Source of the DNA: Marinicauda salina
GTDB taxonomy: Bacteria; Pseudomonadota; Alphaproteobacteria; Caulobacterales; Maricaulaceae
Assembly (NCBI RefSeq): GCF_003122085.1
Contig: NZ_QEXV01000002.1
Location: forward strand, 62,001-126,000
Reading direction: 5' to 3'
Length of the DNA: 64,000 bases
Part shown: positions 3,812-64,000 of the stretch, piece by piece
How the letters are laid out: each line of letters begins with the position of its first letter
Position numbering within the stretch: the stretch's first letter is position 1
Translations under genes and position numbers: made by a program
The notes under the pieces: model-generated
What the model was told of the DNA's origin: nothing
Databases searched by the model: none
Seen by the model: the letters and a program-made list of their open reading frames with translations, nothing else

Positions 3812-4135
3812 ATGAATGCGCGACAGAACACCCCCAGGGGGCCGGCCGGCGGTCCGGCCGATATCGACGCGCTTTGCGAGGCGCTGCTCGTGCTGCGCAC
3901 GGCCGACGAGGCGAAGCGTTTCCTGATGGACCTCGCCACGCCGGGCGAACTCGCCGCGCTCGCCGAGCGCTGGCGGGTGGCGCTGATGCTCGACGCCGGC
4001 GAGAAGTCCTATCGCGAGATCAGCGCCGAGACCGGGGTCAGCACGACGACTGTGACGCGCGTGGCGCGGTTTCTCTCCCAGGAGCCCCACCAGGGCTATC
4101 GCCTCGTGCTCGACCGGCTGAGGGAGACGGCGTAA
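3812..4135 (+). CDS. YerC/YecD-family TrpR-like regulator at head of his operon
   Basis: 107-residue, all-helical DNA-binding protein of the TrpR superfamily. The family core runs from IDALCEALLVLRTADEAKRFLMDL to a helix-turn-helix SYREISAETGVSTTTVTRVARFL near residues 69-92. TrpR-like homologues have been proposed as histidine-biosynthesis repressors in Firmicutes. Here the gene is the first of the his operon, with its TAA overlapping the hisG ATG by one base, which strongly suggests an autoregulated, histidine-responsive repressor. That function is inference from position. The start is well supported by AGGAGG five bases upstream. Confidence 0.88.
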   Translation: MNARQNTPRGPAGGPADIDALCEALLVLRTADEAKRFLMDLATPGELAALAERWRVALMLDAGEKSYREISAETGVSTTTVTRVARFLSQEPHQGYRLVLDRLRETA

Positions 4136-5022
4136 TGACCGGTTCGCGACTGACGCTCGGTGTGCAGAAGAAGGGCCGCCTCGCCGAAGGCGGCATGGAG
4201 CTTGTCCGCCGCGCCGGGGTGAAGCTCGCCTGGGGGCGTGACGAACTGATGCGCCGGGCGGAGAACCTGCCGCTGGATCTCATGCTTATCCGCGACGACG
4301 ACATCCCGAACTTCGTCGCCAGCGGGGCGTGCGATTACGGGATTGTCGGCGAGAACGTGCTGTACGAGGCCCAGGCGCGATCGCCGCGCATAGCCGGGCT
4401 CGAGACAGTCATGAAGCTCGGCTACGCCCGTTGCCGGTTGAAGCTCGCCTCGCCGAAGGACGGCGAGGTCCGCGCCGTGGACGATCTCGCCGGGCGCACT
4501 GTGGCCACCAGCTATCCCAGTCTGACGGAGCGCTTCCTGAACGAACGCGGCGTCGACGCCGAGATCGTCGAGATGAGCGGCTCGGTCGAGATCGCGCCGC
4601 GGATGGGCATCGCCGACGCGATCTGCGATCTCGTCTCGAGCGGCGCGACGCTGGAGGCCAACGGCCTCGCCGCGTTCGAGACCGTGCTCGAGAGCGAGGC
4701 GGTGCTGATCCGCGCGCCGCGGTCGAAATCCGCCGAGATCGAGTCCACCGCCGAATTGCTCGTCGAGCGGTTCAAGGGCGTGATCGCCTCGCGGCAGACG
4801 AAATACATCCTCCTGAACGCGCCGAAGGACCGGCTGGAGGACGTGCGCGCCGTGCTGCCCGGCTCGGACGCGCCGACGGTCGCGCCGGTGGTCGGCCGCG
4901 ACGACGTCGTCGCCGTCCACGCCGTGTGCACCGAGGAGGTGTTCTGGTCGACGCTGGAAAAGCTCAAGGCGGTCGGGGCGCGCTCGATCCTCGTCATGCC
5001 GATCGAAAAGATGATGGCCTGA
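4135..5022 (+). CDS. hisG: ATP phosphoribosyltransferase, long form (HisG_L)
   Basis: First enzyme of histidine biosynthesis, joining ATP and PRPP to N1-(5-phosphoribosyl)-ATP. At 295 residues it is the long, self-regulated form with a C-terminal ACT-like domain (about 225-295, ending EKLKAVGARSILVMPIEKMMA), so no HisZ partner is needed and none is seen. N-terminal catalytic motifs include LGVQKKGRLAEG, the DIPNFVASGACDYGIVG region and the PRPP loop DAICDLVSSGATLEANGL. The ATG overlaps the upstream stop by one base, and hisD follows after four bases. It should be feedback-inhibited by histidine through the ACT-like domain, as in enterobacterial HisG. Confidence 0.95.
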   Translation: MTGSRLTLGVQKKGRLAEGGMELVRRAGVKLAWGRDELMRRAENLPLDLMLIRDDDIPNFVASGACDYGIVGENVLYEAQARSPRIAGLETVMKLGYARCRLKLASPKDGEVRAVDDLAGRTVATSYPSLTERFLNERGVDAEIVEMSGSVEIAPRMGIADAICDLVSSGATLEANGLAAFETVLESEAVLIRAPRSKSAEIESTAELLVERFKGVIASRQTKYILLNAPKDRLEDVRAVLPGSDAPTVAPVVGRDDVVAVHAVCTEEVFWSTLEKLKAVGARSILVMPIEKMMA

Positions 5023-5026
5023 AACG

Positions 5027-6334
5027 ATGCTGCACTCAGTGGTCTGGAAAACCGCGGACGCCCGGCGGCGCGCCGACGCGCTCGCCCGGCCGAGCGCGCG
5101 CGAGGACGCCGAGGCGACCGTCGCGCGCATCCTCGCCGCTGTTCGCGAACGCGGAGAGGCGGCGGTGCGCGAGTACGCCGAACGCTTCGACGGCTGGGCG
5201 CCGGCGGACGGATTCCGTGTGCCGGTCGAGGAGATGGATGCGGCCGAACGCGCGCTTTCCGACACTGACCGGCGGGCGATCCTGGACGCCGCCGACGCCG
5301 TCAGGCGTTTCCACGCCGAGCAGGGGTATCGGGCATATTCGTCCCAGACATGGCCGGGGACCACGGCGGAGCGCCGGGTGACGCCGATCGAAACGGCGGG
5401 GCTTTACATTCCCGCCGGCACGGCGCCGCTGGTCTCGACGGTGATCATGCTCGCCGTCCCCGCGCAGCTGGCCGGCGTGCCGCGCATCGCCGCGATCGCG
5501 CCGCCGCGCAAGGGCGCCGGCGTCGAGCCCACCGTGCTCGCTGCGGCGCGCCTCCTCGGACTCGACGAGGTCTACGCGATCGGCGGGGCCCACGGGATCG
5601 CTGCGCTGGGTTACGGGATCGCCGGTTTGCCGAAGGCCGACAAGATCTTCGGTCCGGGCAACGCCTGGGTCGCCGCGGCCAAGGCCGCGCTCGCCCGCGA
5701 GCCGGGCGGGCCTGCGGTGGACCTGCCCGCCGGGCCGAGCGAGGTGATGGTTATCGCCGATGACGGCGCCGACCCGGAGCTGGTGGCGGCCGATCTCCTG
5801 AGCCAGGCCGAACACGACGTCCTCGCCCAGGTCGTGCTGGTCGCCTGGTCGAAGCCGTTCGTCTCACTGGTCCGCGACGCCGTCGAACGCGGACTCGCCG
5901 GTTTGCCGCGGGCGCAGGTCGCGCGCGCCGCGCTGGCGACGTCTTGCGCGATCCTCGTGTCTGGTGACGCAGAGGCCGCCGAAGTCGCCGACGCGTATGC
6001 GCCCGAGCACCTGATCATACAGACCGGCGATCCCCGCGCGCTCTCGGACAAGGTGCGCAATGCGGGCTCGATCTTCCTCGGTCCGTGGACTCCGGAGGCG
6101 GCCGGTGATTACGCCGCCGGCCCCAATCACGCCCTGCCGACGGCGGGGGCGGCGCGCGTCCATGGCGGGGTCACCGTGGAGATGTTCCAGAAGACCACCA
6201 CCGTGCTCGAGATGTCGCCGGAGGGCGCGCGTGCCATGGGACCGACGGTGGAGCGGCTGGCCGCGCTGGAGGGGCTCGACGCGCATGGGCGCGCCATGGC
6301 GCTGCGCCGCCGGAAATCGGAGGCTGAGGAATGA
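5027..6334 (+). CDS. hisD: Histidinol dehydrogenase
   Basis: 435-residue zinc enzyme catalysing the last two NAD-dependent oxidations, L-histidinol to L-histidine. Recognisable blocks are ETAGLYIPAGTAPLVSTV (cofactor site), the loop GPGNAWVAAAK, the catalytic stretch PAGPSEVMVIAD, SQAEHD with the zinc and base residues, and GPNHALPTAGAAR near the C-terminus. Length is typical for the family. It sits four bases after hisG, and its stop overlaps the hisB start by four bases. The alternative, a sulfopropanediol-dehydrogenase paralogue, is ruled out by the operon. Confidence 0.96.
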   Translation: MLHSVVWKTADARRRADALARPSAREDAEATVARILAAVRERGEAAVREYAERFDGWAPADGFRVPVEEMDAAERALSDTDRRAILDAADAVRRFHAEQGYRAYSSQTWPGTTAERRVTPIETAGLYIPAGTAPLVSTVIMLAVPAQLAGVPRIAAIAPPRKGAGVEPTVLAAARLLGLDEVYAIGGAHGIAALGYGIAGLPKADKIFGPGNAWVAAAKAALAREPGGPAVDLPAGPSEVMVIADDGADPELVAADLLSQAEHDVLAQVVLVAWSKPFVSLVRDAVERGLAGLPRAQVARAALATSCAILVSGDAEAAEVADAYAPEHLIIQTGDPRALSDKVRNAGSIFLGPWTPEAAGDYAAGPNHALPTAGAARVHGGVTVEMFQKTTTVLEMSPEGARAMGPTVERLAALEGLDAHGRAMALRRRKSEAEE

Positions 6335-7542
6335 CGGCGCGGCTTGATCTCTCCCGTTCGCCCGCGGACCGTCGGCGTGCGGACGCCGAAGCGCTGCGCG
6401 CGCGGGCGGCGGCGTTTCTCGATTGCGACGCCGAGCGGCTCGCGCTCGCCGCCTCGCCGGCGGAAGCTCGCGCCGTCCTCGCCTCGGCCGGCGCGGATCG
6501 CATTGTCGATCTCACGGCTCTCGGGCCCGCCGCGCTCGTCGATGCGCCTGACGCCGCCCCGGCGCTGATCCGGCTGGGACCGGACGCCGCGCCGCTGACC
6601 GTCGTCCTGTGTCGCGATGAGGAGGAAGCGAACCGTCTCTCCGAACGCTTGTTCGAGCCCGCCGGGGCGCTCATCAAGGCGGGCCTCGGCGCGCTCGCGC
6701 CCGCCGCGCGCGATCAGGCCGCCGCCGAGGCGGCGGAGCGCCAGGCGCTGCTCGACGCCGCCAGCGCCTGGCTGGCCGCGGACGACTCTGTCGCCGCCGC
6801 GCGCGCCGACGCCGAGGGCCTCGTCCTGGAGCCGGCCGGCGACCCGGCCGAGATGGAAGCCGTGCTCGACCGGCTGGGCCTGAGCCTGGCGCGAAAGGGC
6901 GATCGCTTCGTCGCGTCCGTTCCCGACCTGGTGACCGCGCGCGCGCTCGCCGGCTGGCTCGGACTGAACGCGAGCCGGACGGCGCTGATCCGGCGCTCGA
7001 CGAAGGAGACCGATATCGCGGTGCGCGTCGATCTTGACGGCGAGGGCGCGCGCATCGCCACGGGCGTGAACTTCTTCGACCATATGCTCGAGCAGATCGC
7101 CCGCCACGCCGGGATCGCCCTCGATGTGAGCTGCGAGGGCGATGTCGAGGTCGACGCCCACCACACCATCGAGGATGTGTGTCTTGCGCTCGGCGCGGCG
7201 CTGAAAGAGGCGCTCGGCGACAAGCGCGGGCTCGGCCGGTTCGGCTTCGCGCTGCCGATGGACGAGACTCGCGCCGGGGTCTGGATCGATCTCTCCGGCC
7301 GGCCCTACTGCCGCTTCGACGGAACGATCCCCGGCGAGCGCGTGGGCGACTTTCCCGTCGAGATGGCGCCGCACGCCTTCCGCTCGCTTTCGGAGTCGCT
7401 GCAGGTGGCCATCCATGTCGAGGTCGACGGCGAGAACGCCCACCACATGATCGAGAGCTGTTTCAAGGCGTTCGGCCGGGCGCTGCGCCAGGCCGTGCGG
7501 GTCGAGGGCGACGCGCTGCCCACGACCAAGGGGGTGCTGTGA
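6331..7542 (+). CDS. hisB: Imidazoleglycerol-phosphate dehydratase with ~215-residue HisC-like N-terminal extension
   Basis: 403 residues, twice the ~195 of monofunctional HisB. Residues ~217-403 are a complete IGP dehydratase: NFFDHMLEQIARHAG, the metal site HHTIED, HAFRSLSE, NAHHMIES and the family ending LPTTKGVL. Residues 1-216 are Ala-rich and lack the DxD motif of the histidinol-phosphatase domain in enterobacterial HisB. They look instead like a shrunken aminotransferase: an N-terminal segment like the start of HisC (FLDCDAERLALAASPAEA), and a C-terminal segment like its small domain (LDRLGLSLARKGDRFVASV). The PLP lysine, the NPTG-type loop and the DEAY-type motif are all absent. It lies where hisC sits in hisGDCBHAFI operons. 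Start ATG overlaps hisD by four bases. Dehydratase function is certain; the origin of the extension is inference. Confidence 0.93.
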   Translation: MTARLDLSRSPADRRRADAEALRARAAAFLDCDAERLALAASPAEARAVLASAGADRIVDLTALGPAALVDAPDAAPALIRLGPDAAPLTVVLCRDEEEANRLSERLFEPAGALIKAGLGALAPAARDQAAAEAAERQALLDAASAWLAADDSVAAARADAEGLVLEPAGDPAEMEAVLDRLGLSLARKGDRFVASVPDLVTARALAGWLGLNASRTALIRRSTKETDIAVRVDLDGEGARIATGVNFFDHMLEQIARHAGIALDVSCEGDVEVDAHHTIEDVCLALGAALKEALGDKRGLGRFGFALPMDETRAGVWIDLSGRPYCRFDGTIPGERVGDFPVEMAPHAFRSLSESLQVAIHVEVDGENAHHMIESCFKAFGRALRQAVRVEGDALPTTKGVL

Positions 7543-7568: not shown

Positions 7569-7666
7569 TTTTCCCTCCCCTTGAGGGGAGGGCCAGGGTG
7601 GGGTGGCCGCATTGGCGTCGACCATCGCTTCCCCCCACCCCGACCCTCCCCCGAGGGGGAGGGAGG
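7569..7666. repeat. Palindromic repeat pair inside the his operon
   Basis: Between hisB and hisH two GC-rich hairpins face each other. The left arm is CCCTCCCC-TTGA-GGGGAGGG (7573-7592) followed by CCAGGGTGGGGTGG. The right arm (about 7631-7664) is nearly its reverse complement, ending in a CCCTCCCCC..GGGGGAGGG palindrome. The two arms could also pair with each other over ~33 bases. Similar arms occur at 18229-18255, 42793-42838 and 59423-59442 plus 59563-59590. This is the only gap in an otherwise overlapping operon, and is probably a REP-like insertion between co-transcribed genes. Confidence 0.75.
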
Positions 7667-7708: not shown

Positions 7709-8308
7709 ATGACCGTCGCCATCATCGACACCGCCACGGCGAACATCGCCTCGGTGCGCTTCGCGCTCGAACGGCTCGACGCCGATTACGCGCTGGCGCG
7801 CGATCCCGATGAGGCGGCGGATTGCGACCGGCTGATCCTCCCCGGCGTCGGCGCGGCCGGCCCGGCGATGCGCACGCTCGCCGCGCGCGGCTGGGCGGAG
7901 GCGCTGCAAGGCGAGGCGCGGCCGGTGCTCGGCCTGTGCCTGGGCATGCAGCTGCTGTTCGCGCAGTCGGAGGAGAGCCATTGCGATCTGCTGGGGCTGA
8001 TCCCGGGCCGGGTGATGAGGCTCGACCCGGGCGCGGCGGGGCCGTGGCCGCACATGGGCTGGAACAGCCTAGCGGACATCGAGCCGGACGAGCCGCTGCT
8101 GGCCGGCGTCGCGACGGGCGATCGCGTCTATTTCGTCCACGGCTTTCACGTCCCGGCGGGGCCGTACGCACGGGCGACGACCGAATATGGCGCGGCGATC
8201 ACTGCTGTCGCGCGCAAGGACAATGTCGCCGGCTGCCAGTTCCACCCGGAGCGGTCAGGCGCGGTCGGTGCGCGCATTCTCCGAAATTTCATCGAGGCTT
8301 CCGCATGA
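7709..8308 (+). CDS. hisH: Imidazole glycerol phosphate synthase, glutaminase subunit
   Basis: 199-residue class I glutamine amidotransferase that supplies ammonia to HisF. The nucleophile elbow GLCLGMQ places Cys near residue 77, and the His-Glu pair is in GCQFHPERSG near 178. The start MTVAIIDTATANIASV matches the family, although HisH often has an N(Y/S)GN-type start that is looser here. The ATG (7709) lies just after the palindromic repeat and has only a poor Shine-Dalgarno (GGAG at 7688-7691 is 17 bases away), so expression relative to hisB and hisA may be reduced. The stop overlaps the hisA start (ATGA). Confidence 0.94.
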   Translation: MTVAIIDTATANIASVRFALERLDADYALARDPDEAADCDRLILPGVGAAGPAMRTLAARGWAEALQGEARPVLGLCLGMQLLFAQSEESHCDLLGLIPGRVMRLDPGAAGPWPHMGWNSLADIEPDEPLLAGVATGDRVYFVHGFHVPAGPYARATTEYGAAITAVARKDNVAGCQFHPERSGAVGARILRNFIEASA

Positions 8309-9027
8309 TTCTTTATCCAGCGATCGACGTGCTCGACGGACGTGTCGTCCGGCTCGCGAAGGGCGATTTCGCCGCCGTCACCGAATACGGCGACGACCCC
8401 GGCGCGGTGGCCGAAGGCTACGCTGCGGCCGGCGCGGAGTGGATCCATCTCGTCGACCTGTCCGGCGCGCGGGACGAGACCCGGCGCCAGCCGGAGATCG
8501 TCGGAGCCGTCGCGCGCTCGGGTCTGAAGGTCCAGACCGGAGGCGGGGTGCGTCGCCGCGCCGACGTCGAGGCCCTGCTCGAAGCTGGCGCGCGCCGCGT
8601 CGTGATCGGCAGCCTCGCCGTGAGCGATCCCGAAACCGTCGCCGCCTGGCTCGGCGAGTTCGGGCCGGAGGTGATCGCGACGGCCTTCGACGTGCAGATC
8701 GCCGGCGGCGCGGCCTGGCCGACGCTCAAGGGCTGGCGTGAACGGGCCGAGCGCCCGCTCACCGACCTGCTGGGCGATTACGAGCAGGCGGGGCTCGTCC
8801 ACGCGCTCGTCACCGACACGGGTCGCGACGGCTTGCTCGAGGGGCCGAACACCGACCTCTACGCCGATCTCGTTCGCGCCCGCCCGGACATCGCCTGGCA
8901 GGCCTCCGGCGGGGTCTCGAGCCTCGAGGATCTGGCGGCGCTGAAGCAATCCGGCGCCGCCGGGGCGGTCGTGGGCAAGGCGCTGTTCGAGGGCCGGTTC
9001 ACGCTCGAGGAGGCGCTCAAGTGCTAG
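8305..9027 (+). CDS. hisA: Phosphoribosylformimino-AICAR phosphate isomerase (ProFAR isomerase)
   Basis: 240-residue TIM-barrel enzyme opening the ring of ProFAR to PRFAR. Catalytic Asp residues are recognisable in AIDVLDG (D8) and VTDTGRDG (near 170). Phosphate-binding half-barrel loops are [27 protein letters not shown] and [30 protein letters not shown] 8305 overlaps the hisH stop by four bases, and the 3' end overlaps the hisF GTG by seven bases, so the genes are translationally coupled. Length and motifs fit HisA, not the dual-function PriA of actinobacteria. Confidence 0.95.
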
Positions 9028-9788
9028 CCAAGCGCATCATCCCCTGCCTCGACGTGCGCGACGGCCGCGTGGTCAAGGGCGTGCGCTTTCGCGACCATGT
9101 CGATGTCGGCGACATCGTCGAGCTGGCGACGCGTTACGCCGCGGAGAACGCCGACGAGCTCGTCTTCTACGATATCGCCGCGAGTCCGGCCGACCGCACC
9201 GTCGAGCCCGAATGGGTCTCCCGGGTTGCGCGCGCGATCGACATTCCCTTCTGCGTGGCCGGGGGCATCCGCAGCGTCGATGACGCCCGCGCGCGCCTGT
9301 TCGCCGGCGCCGACAAGATCTCGGTGAACACGCCGGCGCTGCGCGATCCCGGCCTGATCGACCGGCTCGCTGGCGAGTTCGGAACCCAGTGCGTCGTCTG
9401 CGGGATCGATTCCCGCGTGATCGACGGCGAATGGCGGGTCCACCAGAACACCGGCGATCCGGACAAGACCGAGACCTCGCACCGGCGCACGCTAGACTGG
9501 ATCGCCGAGGCGACCGATCGCGGCGTCGGCGAGATCGTGCTCAACTGCATGGACCAGGACGGCGTGCGCGAGGGCTATGACATCGAGCAGCTCGCCGCGG
9601 CGCGGGCGGCCTGTCCGGTTCCGCTGATCGCCTCGGGCGGCGCCGGCGCGCGCGAACACTTCGCCGACGTCTTCGCGCAGGCCGACGTCGACGGCGCGCT
9701 GGCGGCCAGCGTCTTCCACAAGGGGCTGATCGCCATTCCCGAGCTGAAGGCCTGGCTCGCCGATCGCGGCGTGGAGATGCGGACATGA
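9021..9788 (+). CDS. hisF: Imidazole glycerol phosphate synthase, cyclase subunit
   Basis: 255-residue TIM barrel that uses ammonia from HisH and PRFAR to form imidazole glycerol phosphate and AICAR. Motifs are [15 protein letters not shown] (catalytic D11), [38 protein letters not shown] and [12 protein letters not shown]. It starts with GTG 9021, overlapping hisA by seven bases, and ends overlapping hisIE by four. It forms a complex with the HisH encoded one gene upstream. Confidence 0.96.
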
Positions 9789-10393
9789 CCGACGAGACGC
9801 TCGACTGGGACAAGGCCGGCGGGCTTCTGCCCGCCATCGTCCAGGACGCCGACACCGGCGAAGTGCTGATGCTCGGCTACATGAACGCCGAAGCGCTCGC
9901 GGAGACGCGCGAGAGCGGCCTGGTCACCTTCTTCAGCCGCTCGAAACAGCGCCTCTGGCGCAAGGGCGAAACGTCCGGGAACACGCTGGCTCTGGTTTCG
10001 ATCGAGGCCGATTGCGATCGCGACGCGCTGCTGGTGCGCGCGCGCCCCGCCGGACCGGTCTGCCATCTCGGGACGCGGTCCTGCTTCGGCGAGACGCAGG
10101 GGCCGACGCTCGCCTTTCTCGGCGAACTGGCCCGCATCGTCGAGGCGCGCGCCGGCGCCGATCCCGACGATAGCTACACGGCGCGACTCCTTGAGCGCGG
10201 CGCGCTCAAGGCCGCGCAGAAGGTGGGCGAGGAAGGCGTCGAGACCGCGCTCGCCGGCGCAGCGGAGGACGACGACGCGCTGATCGACGAGAGCGCCGAT
10301 CTCGTCTTCCACCTGATGGTGCTGCTGAAGGCGCGCGGGCTGTCGCTCGACGTCGTCGCCGAGCGGCTCCGCGCGCGTCATCGGGACTCCTAG
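9785..10393 (+). CDS. hisI: Bifunctional phosphoribosyl-AMP cyclohydrolase / phosphoribosyl-ATP pyrophosphatase
   Basis: 202-residue fusion carrying out steps two and three of histidine synthesis. Residues ~1-115 are the PRA-CH domain ([24 protein letters not shown], zinc site [17 protein letters not shown]). Residues ~120-202 are the MazG-like PRA-PH domain ([25 protein letters not shown]). Most alphaproteobacteria encode hisI and hisE separately, so the fused form plus the hisGD(C)BHAF order resembles the compact enterobacterial or Bacteroidetes operon. Last gene of the operon; its 3' end overlaps the convergent M14 peptidase gene by four bases. Confidence 0.95.
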
Positions 10394-18481: not shown

Positions 18482-19684
18482 ATGTCCGAGTCCTTCTACG
18501 ATCAGCTCCGCGAGACGCTGAAGGAGATCGAGGCCGAGGGCCTCTACAAGCGCGAGCGCATCATCACCTCGCAGCAATTCTCCGAGATCGACGTGCGCTC
18601 GAACGGCGGCTCGAAGCACGTGCTGAATTTCTGCGCCAACAACTATCTGGGCCTGGCCAACCGGCCCGAGCTGATCGAGGCGGCGAAGACCGCGCTCGAC
18701 CGCTACGGCTACGGCGTGGCCTCGGTGCGCTTCATCTGCGGCGCCCAGGATGTTCATCGCGAACTCGAGCAGCGGCTGGCGCAATGGACGGGCCAGGAGG
18801 ATGCGATCCTCTACGCCGCCGCCTTCGACGCAAACGGCGGGCTGTTCGAGCCGCTGCTGGGCCCCGACGACGCCATCATCTCGGACGCGCTCAACCACGC
18901 CTCGATCATCGACGGGATCCGGCTGTGCAAGGCGAAGCGCTATCGCTACGCCAATTCCGACATGGACGATCTGGAGGCGAAGCTGAAAGAGGCCCGCGCC
19001 GACGGCTCGCGCAACATCCTGATCGCCACCGACGGCGTGTTCTCGATGGACGGCTATATCGCGAAGCTCAATGAAATCTGCGATCTGGCCGATAAGTATG
19101 ATGCGCTGACCATGGTCGACGACTGCCACGCCCACGGCTTCATGGGCGCCAAGGGCCGCGGCACGCCGGAGCATTGCGGCGTCATGGACCGCATCGACAT
19201 CATCACCGGCACGCTCGGCAAGGCGCTCGGCGGCGCGATGGGCGGCTTCACCGCGGCGAAGCAGCCCGTCATCGACATGCTGCGCCAGCGCTCGCGGCCC
19301 TACCTGTTCTCGAACTCTTTGGCGCCGGCGATCGTGGGCGCGAGCCTTACCGCCCTCGACATGGTCGAGGCCGGCGACGATCTGCGCGCGCGGCTGTTCG
19401 ACAACGCGAAGCGCTTCCGGGCGGGCATGACCGAGGCGGGTTTCGAGCTTCTGCCCGGCGAGCATCCGATCATCCCGGTCATGCTGGGCGACGCGGCGCT
19501 GTCTCAGAAGATGGCCGACCGGCTGATGGAGGAGGGCGTCTACGTGATCGGCTTCTTCTATCCGGTCGTGCCCAAGGGAAAGGCGCGCATCCGCACGCAG
19601 ATGAGCGCCGCCCACACCCCGGACATGATCGACCGCGCGGTGGCCGCCTTCACGAAGGTGGGCAAGGAGCTGGGCGTGGTGTGA
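18482..19684 (+). CDS. kbl: Glycine C-acetyltransferase (2-amino-3-ketobutyrate CoA ligase)
   Basis: 400-residue PLP enzyme of the alpha-oxoamine synthase family. It cleaves 2-amino-3-oxobutyrate with CoA to glycine and acetyl-CoA, the second step of threonine catabolism. Motifs are [55 protein letters not shown], and the PLP lysine in [17 protein letters not shown] (near residue 246). The presence of tdh 1.4 kb downstream separates it from its relatives BioF and HemA; the true hemA is at 60687. I chose ATG 18482 ([13 protein letters not shown]), the conserved Kbl start; an in-frame ATG 22 codons upstream gives no family match. Confidence 0.94.
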
Positions 19685-59374: not shown

Positions 59375-59653
59375 GTCTCATGCGCTGTCGATTGAGCACC
59401 GAAAGGAATTTCGCCTCCACTTTAGGGGAGGGCCAGGGTGGGTGAATTGAAATCCCGGACGCGCCGCAGGCGCGATCCGGGACCTGGGCGCGATATTTTC
59501 TGGGCGAGGCCCCGGCTCTCCCTTTGGTCGGCCGGGGTTTCATGGAGACCACGCTCGACCCCAATCCTCCCCCGAGAGGGGGGAGGGAGGACGTTCACGA
59601 ACGCTCCGGTGACGCAATAGAAGCAGCCGCCGGATCAGAAAGCTGGAGAGACA
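59375..59653. repeat. Composite intergenic repeat, copy 3 (inverted orientation)
   Basis: Between the hydrolase and mmsB genes. Order is A (AGGGGAGGGCCAGGGTGGG, 59424-59442), inverted C (59448-59483: TGAAATCCCGGACGCGCC to GGCGCGATCCCGGGAC-like end), inverted B (59506-59542: GAGGCCCCGGCTCTCC to GGCCGGGGTTTCA), then a second A arm (CCTCCCCCGAGAGGGGGGAGGG, about 59567-59588). B and C are almost exact reverse complements of copy 1 (18286-18384). The A arms at both ends make the whole an ~170-base inverted-repeat-bounded unit. Confidence 0.85.
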
Positions 59654-60686: not shown

Positions 60687-61910
60687 ATGATGGACTACAC
60701 CGGCGCTTTCAAGTCCGCCGTCGCGCGGGTCCGGGCCGAGGGCCGCTATCGGGTCTTCGCCGATCTGCTGCGCAAGCGCGGCGAGTTTCCCCGCGCGCGC
60801 TACCGCACCGAGCACGGCGACACCCGCGAGGTCACCGTCTGGTGCTCGAACGACTATCTCGGCATGGGCCAGAGCAATTGCGTCATCGGCGCGATGAAGA
60901 ACGCGATCGACGATGTCGGCGCCGGGGCGGGCGGCACGCGCAACATCTCCGGGACCACGCACTATCACGTCGAGCTTGAGCGCTCGCTCGCCGACCTTCA
61001 CCAGAAGGAAGCCGCGCTTCTGTTCACGTCGGGCTATCTCGCCAACCAGGCGACGCTCGCCACGCTGGGCAAGATCCTGCCCGGCCTGATCGTGTTCTCC
61101 GACGAGCTCAACCACGCCTCGATGATCGAGGGCGTGAAGGGCGCGCGCTGCGAAAAGCATGTCTGGCGGCACAATGACGTCGCTCACCTCGAGGAGCTTC
61201 TGAAGGCTGCGCCTGCCGACGCGCCCAAGGTGATCGCGCTCGAGTCCGTCTACTCGATGGACGGCGATGTCGGACCGCTCGAGGCGGTGTGCGATCTCGC
61301 CGACAAGTACGGCGCGCTCACCTATCTCGACGAGGTTCACGCGGTCGGCCTCTATGGCCTGCGCGGCGCTGGCGTCGCCGAGCGCGACGGCCTGCTCGAC
61401 CGCATCGACATCATCGAGGGCACGCTCGGCAAGGCCTTCGGCGTGATGGGCGGCTATATCGCCGCCGACGCGGTCGTGTGCGACGCCATCCGCTCGTGGG
61501 CGCCGGGCTTCATCTTCACCACCTCGCTGGCGCCGGTGCTGGCCGCCGGGGCGCGGGCGAGCGTGGAGTATCTCAAATCCGCGAATCACCTGCGCGAGGC
61601 GCACCAGGAGCGCGCCGCGACGCTGAAGCGGCGGCTGGCGGAGGAGGGGGTGCCGGTCATGGACTCGGAAACGCACATCGTTCCCGTCCATGTCGGCGAT
61701 CCGGTCCGCTGCAAGCGCATGACCGATCTTCTCCTCGATCAGCACGGCATCTATGTCCAGCCGATCAATTACCCGACCGTGCCCAAGGGGACCGAGCGGA
61801 TGCGGCTGACCCCGACGCCGCTCCACACCGATGCGATGTTCGACGAGCTCATCGCCGCGCTGAAGGCCGTCTATGCAGAGAGCGCCGGCGAATTGCGGGT
61901 CGTGGGATGA
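60687..61910 (+). CDS. hemA: 5-aminolevulinate synthase
   Basis: 407-residue PLP enzyme condensing glycine and succinyl-CoA, the first committed step of heme synthesis in alphaproteobacteria. Motifs are [35 protein letters not shown] (glycine site), [38 protein letters not shown] and the PLP lysine in [18 protein letters not shown] (near 249). The [10 protein letters not shown] and HAVG details separate it from Kbl (18482). The stop overlaps the next small gene by four bases (ATGA). The two successive Met codons leave the exact start uncertain by one residue. Confidence 0.96.
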
Positions 61911-62850: not shown

Positions 62851-64000
62851 ATGGCGGACGCGCCGCACCACGACAAGACCGGCGGATTCTTCACCGACAG
62901 CCTCGGCGCCCGCGATCCGGAGATCGCCGATGCGATCGGCAAGGAGATCCGGCGCCAGCAGCAGCAGATCGAGCTGATCGCGTCGGAGAACATTGTTTCG
63001 CGCGCCGTCCTCGAGGCCCAGGGCTCTCCGCTGACCAACAAGTACGCCGAGGGCTATCCGGGCAAGCGCTATTACGGCGGCTGCGAATTCGTCGACATCG
63101 CCGAGGATCTGGCGATCGACCGCGCCAAGCGCCTGTTCGATGCGGCCTACGCGAACGTCCAGCCCAATTCCGGCAGCCAGGCCAATCAGGCCGTCTTCCT
63201 CGCCCTGCTCAAACCCGGCGACAAGATTCTCGGCATGGACCTGTCGGCGGGCGGCCACCTGACGCACGGCGCGAAGCCGAACATCTCGGGCAAGTGGTTC
63301 GAGGCGCATCACTACGGCGTGCGCGAGGACGACGCGCGCATCGACTATGACGCGCTGCGCGAGCAGGCGAAGGAGCTCCAGCCGCAGCTGATCATCGCCG
63401 GCGGGTCGGCCTATCCCCGCGTCATCGACTTCAAGGCGTTCCGCGAGATCGCCGACGAGGTCGGCGCGTACCTGCTCGTCGACATGGCGCATTTCGCCGG
63501 CCTCGTCGCCGGCGGCGCCTATCCCAATCCCGTGCCGTTCGCCGACGCGGTCACGACCACGACCCACAAGACGCTGCGCGGCCCGCGCGGCGGCATGATC
63601 CTGTCGCGCGACGCCGATCTCGGGAAGAAATTCAATTCGGCGGTCTTCCCCGGTCTGCAGGGCGGTCCGCTGATGCATGTCATCGCCGCCAAGGCCGTGG
63701 CGTTCGGCGAGGCGCTGCAGCCGGAATTCCGCACCTACGCCGCTTCGGTGATCGAGAACTGCCGGGCGATGTCCGCCGCGCTGTCGGAGGCCGGGCTCGA
63801 TCTCGTCTCGGGCGGGACGGACAGCCATCTCGCGCTCGTCGACCTGCGGCCGAAGGGGCTGACGGGCAACATTTCCGAGCAGGCGCTCGAGCGGGCCAAC
63901 ATCACCTGCAACAAGAACGGCGTGCCGTTCGACCCGGAGAAGCCGATGGTGACGTCGGGGCTGCGCATTGGGTCGCCGGCGGGCACCACGCGCGGTTTCG
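62851..64000 (+). CDS. glyA: Serine hydroxymethyltransferase (3' end beyond window)
   Basis: The first 383 residues are visible and the frame is still open at base 64000; the family is ~430 long. PLP fold-type I enzyme interconverting serine and glycine with tetrahydrofolate. Motifs are [60 protein letters not shown] and the PLP lysine in [15 protein letters not shown] (near 239). Start ATG 62851 is preceded by GGAG at six bases. Supplies glycine for HemA and one-carbon units; divergent from mucR. Confidence 0.96.

Follow-up and report, generated by a model that had tools for sequence, protein, structure and literature searches.

A degenerate HisC domain, probably the relic of an active HisC-HisB fusion, precedes HisB in the histidine operon of Marinicauda salina

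A 64,000-nucleotide stretch of the Marinicauda salina genome (contig NZ_QEXV01000002.1, positions 62,001 to 126,000 of the forward strand; hereafter the window) contains a histidine operon in which hisB encodes a long N-terminal extension. The gene occupies 6331-7542 on the forward strand, which also carries the other his genes of the operon, and is one open reading frame (ORF) for a 403-residue protein. Residues 214-403 and the stop codon (6970-7542) correspond to HisB, or imidazoleglycerol-phosphate dehydratase (IGPD), which was matched by the NCBIfam HisB models and by Pfam PF00475 over residues 244-385 (expectation value [E] 1.5e-58, 197.4 bits against a cut-off of 27). This was the sole Pfam match in the whole protein, and solved IGPDs, searched with the whole protein by phmmer, matched from residue 212 onward, in the HisB part only. 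Since the domain is complete and is the only IGPD detected in the genome, HisB should be active, judging from its sequence. Residues 1-212 (6331-6966) appear to be a degenerate, non-catalytic HisC (histidinol-phosphate aminotransferase) domain, as suggested by profile alignment, an AlphaFold model, structural matches and the intact HisC found at the same place in relatives. The sequence-only reading of this DNA had described residues 1-216 as extra; the extension is real and matches no family, but its boundary lies at 212-213. Translation begins within an ATGA (6331-6334), where the start of the gene overlaps the stop of hisD by four bases; hisD itself (5027-6334; TIGR00069, E 1.8e-141) lies immediately upstream. 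The operon is compact, in the order yerC/trpR-like gene, hisG (4135-5022; TIGR00070, E 2.4e-54), hisD, extended hisB, hisH (7709-8308; TIGR01855, E 3.7e-56), hisA (8305-9027; TIGR00007, E 1.3e-64, 218 bits, slightly below the cut-off of 228.95), hisF (9021-9788; TIGR00735, E 4.4e-96) and hisIE (9785-10393; NF002747, E 3e-79). Neither the ORFs nor a profile search of the window locus revealed a separate hisC between hisD and hisIE.

Residues 1-212 had no significant sequence match in Pfam, NCBIfam or the PDB. With residues 1-220, Pfam gave just two matches far under the cut-off (LprI, E 0.083; RRP40_N, E 4.4), and NCBIfam gave none, TIGR01141 (HisC) included. A profile of 12 such extensions retrieved a single PDB sequence, a DnaA chain (E 0.42), which was taken as chance, and no relatives of the extension were detected in PLSDB plasmids by tblastn at E 1e-5. 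The NCBIfam model of the bifunctional enzyme HisNB, NF003937, matched residues 213-403 with 280.7 bits, below its cut-off of 443, and covered model positions 164-355 only, so that its phosphatase half is unmatched. The window protein therefore does not carry the N-terminal haloacid dehalogenase (HAD) phosphatase domain of HisNB, as had been read from its letters.

The loss of the pyridoxal phosphate (PLP)-binding lysine and of the NPTG, DEAY and SK motifs, also claimed earlier, was confirmed in 32 short dead extensions from the same bacterial family, that of the window included; these motif names, like HAD, are labels that we take to denote HisC and phosphatase sites. NPTG and DEAY were missing from all 32, no alignment column exceeded 25% lysine, and the segment that bears the lysine in live domains is gone. 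The letters LSK occurred in five extensions, at residue 7 in four of them and at the HisB junction in the fifth, and never at the place of the active lysine. None of the 32 matched PF00155 at E 1 or better, and thus none approached the family score of a functional HisC. In 17 aligned live HisC domains (16 from the family of the window and 1 from another family; 353-365 residues), 33 polar residues were invariant, and the DEAY tyrosine and the lysine were invariant as well. By comparison, no polar column of the 32 dead extensions reached 85%; Gly83 and Pro124 were invariant, and besides these a few Leu and Ala positions were kept. On these residues, the extension cannot be an aminotransferase.

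In an hhalign comparison of the dead extensions (32) and the live HisC domains (17), residues 110-212 (6658-6966) matched HisC 241-351, the C-terminal small domain (score 40.0, E 5.6e-5). With 12 extensions the score was 39.2, whereas 200 column shuffles reached at most 20.6 and the reversed alignment 19.1; the score rose to 45.7 when three HisC remnants from Brevundimonas were added on the HisC side. The N-terminal half, tested alone, aligned residues 19-50 (6385-6480) with HisC 57-88 at E 3.2e-5, its score of 35.5 comparing with 19.6 for the highest among 200 column shuffles. The matched parts follow each other collinearly in the extension and in HisC, separated by residues 51-109 (6481-6657), 59 residues in place of the 152 of HisC 89-240, the former home of NPTG, DEAY and the PLP lysine (residues 154-157, 180-183 and 210 of the live domain). 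The suggestion that the extension resembles the two ends of HisC with the middle gone was thus upheld, each half scoring above its 200 shuffles.

AlphaFold2 predicted a confident structure for the extension (mean predicted local distance difference test score [pLDDT] 94.8; 32 sequences) and for the whole protein (mean pLDDT 87.9, predicted template modelling score [pTM] 0.82; 12 sequences). Foldseek of the extension model against the PDB ranked HisCs first (1gey, E 3.4e-4), and of the four matches at E ≤0.001, three were HisC and one was a diaminopelargonic acid aminotransferase. VIA-align, run as a second look at the Foldseek list, had HisC titles in 17 of the 19 best rows, and superposed the predicted model on 7szp_B over 196 of 212 residues with a Z score of 13.0 and a root-mean-square deviation (rmsd) of 3.9 Å. 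A fold comparison had been proposed with the original claim, an unrelated fold being what would speak against it; the best PDB matches, 1gey and 7szp_B, are histidinol-phosphate aminotransferases. In its predicted structure the extension has a fold-type-I aminotransferase fold closest to HisC, and profile and model together indicate that it descends from a HisC domain. Several results weigh against this. The profile scores, though significant, are modest (probability 61-84%); swapping query and template lowered the score to 33.9 (E 5.1e-4); the extensions did not align significantly with the Brevundimonas remnants alone (22.3, E 0.02); and Pfam, run on the 32 extensions, gave scattered weak matches (best E 0.0099) and no aminotransferase. 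Moreover, an rmsd of 3.9 Å is large, and LL-diaminopimelate and other fold-type-I aminotransferases follow from Z 11.4, within 2 Z units of the best HisC.

The same locus was read in related genomes, for which the group names Maricaulaceae (family f1) and Brevundimonas (genus g21) are inferred. In a first survey, 61 genomes were searched with the whole protein and the loci then read. Many relatives encode a HisB of 543-555 residues, directly after hisD, the first part of which is a complete HisC. The HisB type of the window was present in 120 of 137 genomes of its family, and these were sorted on the length of the frame, the HisC matches and the translated loci (frame length and HisC matches for the live type): 68 genomes have a live HisC domain, 32 (the window included) a short dead extension and 20 a HisD-HisB fusion. 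In 64 of the 68 live-type genomes a HisC above the curated cut-off lies in the HisB frame, and in 4 the match is partial (G089, G096, G131 and G157). Among 19 live proteins checked for motifs (18 of the family, and G040), DEAY and TLSK were present in all and an NPTG-like motif in 18, that of G002 falling outside the pattern. The dead extensions measure 184-219 residues and likewise place a HisC-derived part in frame before HisB and after hisD; they are kept across six genera of the main clade (g1, g5, g8, g11, g14 and g15), with 27-44% identity to the extension of the window. Because it recurs in 31 further genomes of the family, the extension is not a chance open frame. The survey of relatives envisaged by the sequence-only reading thus found both an intact HisC at this place (64 genomes) and the same shrunken fusion (31 others).

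In the 20 HisD-HisB genomes, HisD is joined in frame to HisB by a linker of about 20-25 residues (L084/G009, L085/G025, L138/G077 and L139-L155). Nineteen belong to genus g10 (probably Maricaulis), and G077 belongs to another genus and has a different linker; this fusion perhaps arose in two events. On a small contig (L276, G141:C10), the live-type genome G141 additionally encodes a stand-alone HisB, its second, and a strongly divergent HisC; these may be contamination or belong to a foreign his cluster.

A further set of remnants was found in Brevundimonas, where 118 of 131 genomes have the HisB type of the window; the loci of 30 of these 118 were read. Two genomes (G197 and G253) retain the lysine in a fused HisC and carry a stand-alone HisC as well; they represent the redundant state that precedes decay. 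The lysine position is Leu in 24 loci and Met in 1, and 23 of these 25 remnants with a readable site are 277-305 residues long. Three loci have no in-frame lysine site: G172 and G220, where only the end of the domain is left, and G244, which has a frameshift in the remnant. In G244 (L244, locus about 504-1100), a one-contig genome, the site reads as Leu in another frame and HisB stays open; unless this is a sequencing error, the genome offers a natural experiment on whether HisB can do without the domain. Since live Brevundimonas fusions are sister to the dead ones (support 93, HisB tree) and the remnants miss different parts, two decays are judged likelier than one, and the Brevundimonas decay was probably independent of that in Maricaulaceae. 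A single origin of both was not rejected at 0.05 (p-AU 0.0712, approximately unbiased [AU] test).

A working hisC elsewhere in the genome had been expected, and one was found. On another contig, Marinicauda salina encodes a HisC of 359 residues (G000:C7:25674-26723; TIGR01141, 300.6 bits, cut-off 276.55), near genes for a DUF2125 protein, an acyltransferase and a hydroxyacylglutathione hydrolase. A HisC above the cut-off and away from HisB was present in 32 of 32 dead-extension genomes, 18 of 20 HisD-HisB genomes (G112 and G117 having none) and 15 of 68 live-type genomes. None was found in the other 53 live-type genomes, an absence that is unsure in some because these are only 65-90% complete. 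By genome counts the association of a dead domain with a stand-alone HisC was strong (Fisher p 9.6e-18), although related genomes are not independent; independent pairs numbered one on well supported branches and three on all branches, too few for a test, which counts against leaning on the association. A HisB match was lacking in 16 genomes, and in 12 of them both hisD and IGPD were missing (G016, G034, G035, G166, G203, G208, G223, G233, G234, G245, G269 and G277), and their gene content suggests that histidine synthesis has probably been lost. Because 11 of these 12 keep a stand-alone HisC above the cut-off (the match in G203 being partial, 217.6 bits), the stand-alone enzyme seems to have work outside histidine synthesis. 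Such an extra task is a possible reason why this copy survived in the dead-extension lineages.

Quick trees, with Shimodaira-Hasegawa-like approximate likelihood ratio test (SH-aLRT) support only, separated the two kinds of HisC. In the HisC tree (68 rows), 21 of 22 fused HisCs formed one clade (support 98), on the side of the tree with gammaproteobacterial and Balneolota operon HisCs. Far from it, another clade (100) took in 30 of 31 stand-alone HisCs. The two outliers from these clades were fused L164 and the stand-alone L276 of G141 (branch 2.97). In the HisB tree (98 rows, with 8 of the 20 HisD-HisB rows and with 16 rows labelled NB, 7 of them without the HAD pattern that was looked for), the fused and dead types grouped with gammaproteobacterial and Balneolota HisBs and stood apart (support 100) from ten HisBs of the same order that are stand-alone. 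In the quick HisB tree, moreover, the dead domain of G003 seemed to have arisen separately. It was not counted apart because a tree joining G003 to the dead and HisD-HisB rows of the family was likelier by 4.34 (p-AU 0.579), and because its extension aligns over the full length with those of the family (31% identity to that of the window). The trees fit the entry of a gammaproteobacterial-like his operon into a lineage that already held its own HisC; we infer the donor, the direction of transfer and the loss of the phosphatase domain on the way.

The gammaproteobacterial affinity of the HisB half could also be expected if the extension came from the HAD phosphatase half of HisNB, and 1 of the 32 extensions had a weak HAD match (PF00702, E 0.14); further weak matches, for example to DUF3708 (E 0.0099, 2 of 32), might hint at some unrelated protein. 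Yet relatives hold HisC, not HAD, at the same place, the profile and structural matches point to HisC, and the HisNB model matches the HisB part only. Both origins are therefore considered very improbable, and descent from the HisN phosphatase was set aside on the HisNB model, the loci of relatives and the structural matches.

The open frame had been read as a possible sign of selection. By itself it is weak evidence, because the same frame continues into HisB; the ratio of nonsynonymous to synonymous substitution rates (dN/dS, NG86), which the sequence-only reading had also proposed to determine, is better. Eighteen pairs that share genomes were compared, 17 in the family of the window and 1 in Brevundimonas. 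In the 13 pairs with a synonymous rate (dS) below 1, dN/dS of the extension was 0.16-0.38, and it was 0.05-0.41 over all 18, of which four are near saturation (dS >1.2) and one more has a dS of 1.10. Neutral simulations from four extensions (16 settings) gave means of 0.84-1.13 and lower 2.5% bounds of 0.52-0.72; the lowest single run, among the 150 of one setting, was 0.39. Because the observed ratios lie below the neutral ones, purifying selection acts on the amino acids of the extension, more weakly than on the HisB part of the same genes, where dN/dS was 0.01-0.17 and lower than in the extension in 18 of 18 pairs.

This excess over HisB would suit a dead HisC of the same origin that is mere dead weight, shrinking by drift and deletion and kept only by its in-frame position between the coupled start and HisB. 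The series of domain lengths, 356 residues (live), about 288 (Brevundimonas), 207-212, 184-189 and 0, is what such shrinkage would leave, and the complete loss in HisD-HisB genomes and the frameshift in G244 agree with it. The ratios of 0.16-0.38 under the neutral bounds speak against dead weight, which we regard as quite unlikely.

Purifying selection would equally be expected had the dead domain, again of the same origin, gained a docking, scaffold or regulatory task by binding the stand-alone HisC, another pathway enzyme or a metabolite. The confident fold of the extension, the full-length pTM, a hint of defined two-domain packing, and the retention of the domain across six genera would all be consistent with a new task. 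However, the 32 sequences have no well conserved polar residue of the sort that a site for binding or regulation should show, the domain is absent from 20 genomes of the family, and identity to the extension of the window drops as low as stated above. A new task is possible, though we think it unlikely. A specific version, in which the dead HisC was recruited as a non-catalytic HisB-assembly module that holds the stand-alone HisC near HisB, is rather doubtful; if true, a covalent bifunctional enzyme would have become a non-covalent complex through the remains of its own domain.

We favor, as the probable explanation, that an active HisC was fused to HisB, then decayed, and was retained for a structural role within the HisB polypeptide. 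The sequence-only reading had hisC decaying and becoming fused in frame to hisB; the HisC relic stands, and the order is most likely the reverse, fusion before decay, because relatives carry HisC-HisB fusions with an intact HisC. The ancestor would have had a gammaproteobacterial-type his operon, with hisC fused in frame to a hisB without a phosphatase domain, together with a second, unlinked HisC, so that one of the two copies was spare. Some lineages would have lost the unlinked HisC and retained the fusion. In the lineage of the window the unlinked HisC would have been retained, and the fused one would have lost its N-terminal part and most of the PLP-binding middle, the remainder becoming a compact, folded, non-catalytic domain before HisB. 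As translation of hisB begins at the coupled start codon, this domain might have to fold well for HisB to be soluble and to assemble, and the coupling may make its clean removal hard; the HisD-HisB fusions may show the outcome of a removal. A structural role is the likeliest reason for keeping the dead domain. The need for it is made doubtful by the 20 HisD-HisB genomes, from which the domain is wholly gone, and by G244, in which it is frameshifted.

The extension resembles HisC (TIGR01141, PF00155) in descent, fold, the order of its two aligned parts and its place between hisD and hisB, but lacks the PLP lysine, NPTG and DEAY, is about 40% shorter and goes undetected by the family models. With the enterobacterial bifunctional HisNB (NF003937) the window protein shares the same broad HisB group, an N-terminal extra domain and a compact his operon; they differ in that domain, an active HAD phosphatase in HisNB and a dead HisC in the window protein. 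Gene fusion is recurrent in this pathway, with hisB and hisD among the fused genes (PMC1963479, PMC10138114). In the accessible portions of the reviews, the fused genes named are hisD, N, B, H, F, I and E, with hisC absent (PMC1963479, PMC10138114, PMC8305728), and those portions of PMC1963479 and PMC10138114 include no HisC-HisB or HisD-HisB pair. The fungal HIS4 enzyme is different, a HisI-HisE-HisD fusion with an N-terminal region that is described there as of unknown origin (PMC1963479). Other parallels, as far as the accessible text describes them, are HisHb-TyrA of Rhodobacter sphaeroides, in which a HisC-type aminotransferase takes part in a gene fusion, and the broad (HisHb) and narrow (HisHn) HisC pair of Pasteurella and Haemophilus, with two copies of which one lies in the his operon; unlike the case of the window, no decay is described there and the fusion partner is TyrA (PMC1173090). 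Among the open-licence papers searched, no title or abstract opening pointed to a HisC-HisB fusion. The strings 'hisC-hisB' or 'hisDCB' occur in Corynebacterium glutamicum papers.

The HisC-HisB case is a gene fusion with one partner turned pseudoenzyme. As far as the open-licence papers searched show, HisC-HisB and HisD-HisB are additions to the his gene fusions. Signs that the pseudoenzyme may have acquired a function are indirect, namely purifying selection and a confidently predicted fold. Close relatives display a readable life series of an enzyme fusion, from live domains through lysine-replaced domains of about 288 residues and remnants of 184-219 residues to loss with HisD-HisB, and this makes it testable why a dead domain persists under purifying selection inside an active enzyme.

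Other features of the window and genome were recorded. A YerC/YecD-type TrpR-like regulator gene lies at 3812-4135, directly 5' of hisG, an arrangement like that of xanthomonad his operons. Class I/II aminotransferase matches (PF00155) lie at 18617-19651, 60828-61862 and 63139-63987 of the window, and none of these three genes is a HisC by TIGR01141 search at E 1e-40. The genome has four inositol-monophosphatase family genes (G000:C7:5925, C1:773890, C3:600264 and C1:826457), any of which could, by family membership, encode the histidinol phosphatase that the operon lacks. The gap between hisB and hisH holds a GC-rich palindromic repeat (7573-7663), two copies of a 20-base palindrome (0 to 3 mismatches), of which a third, weaker copy lies at 59413, with 0.03 matches expected by chance.

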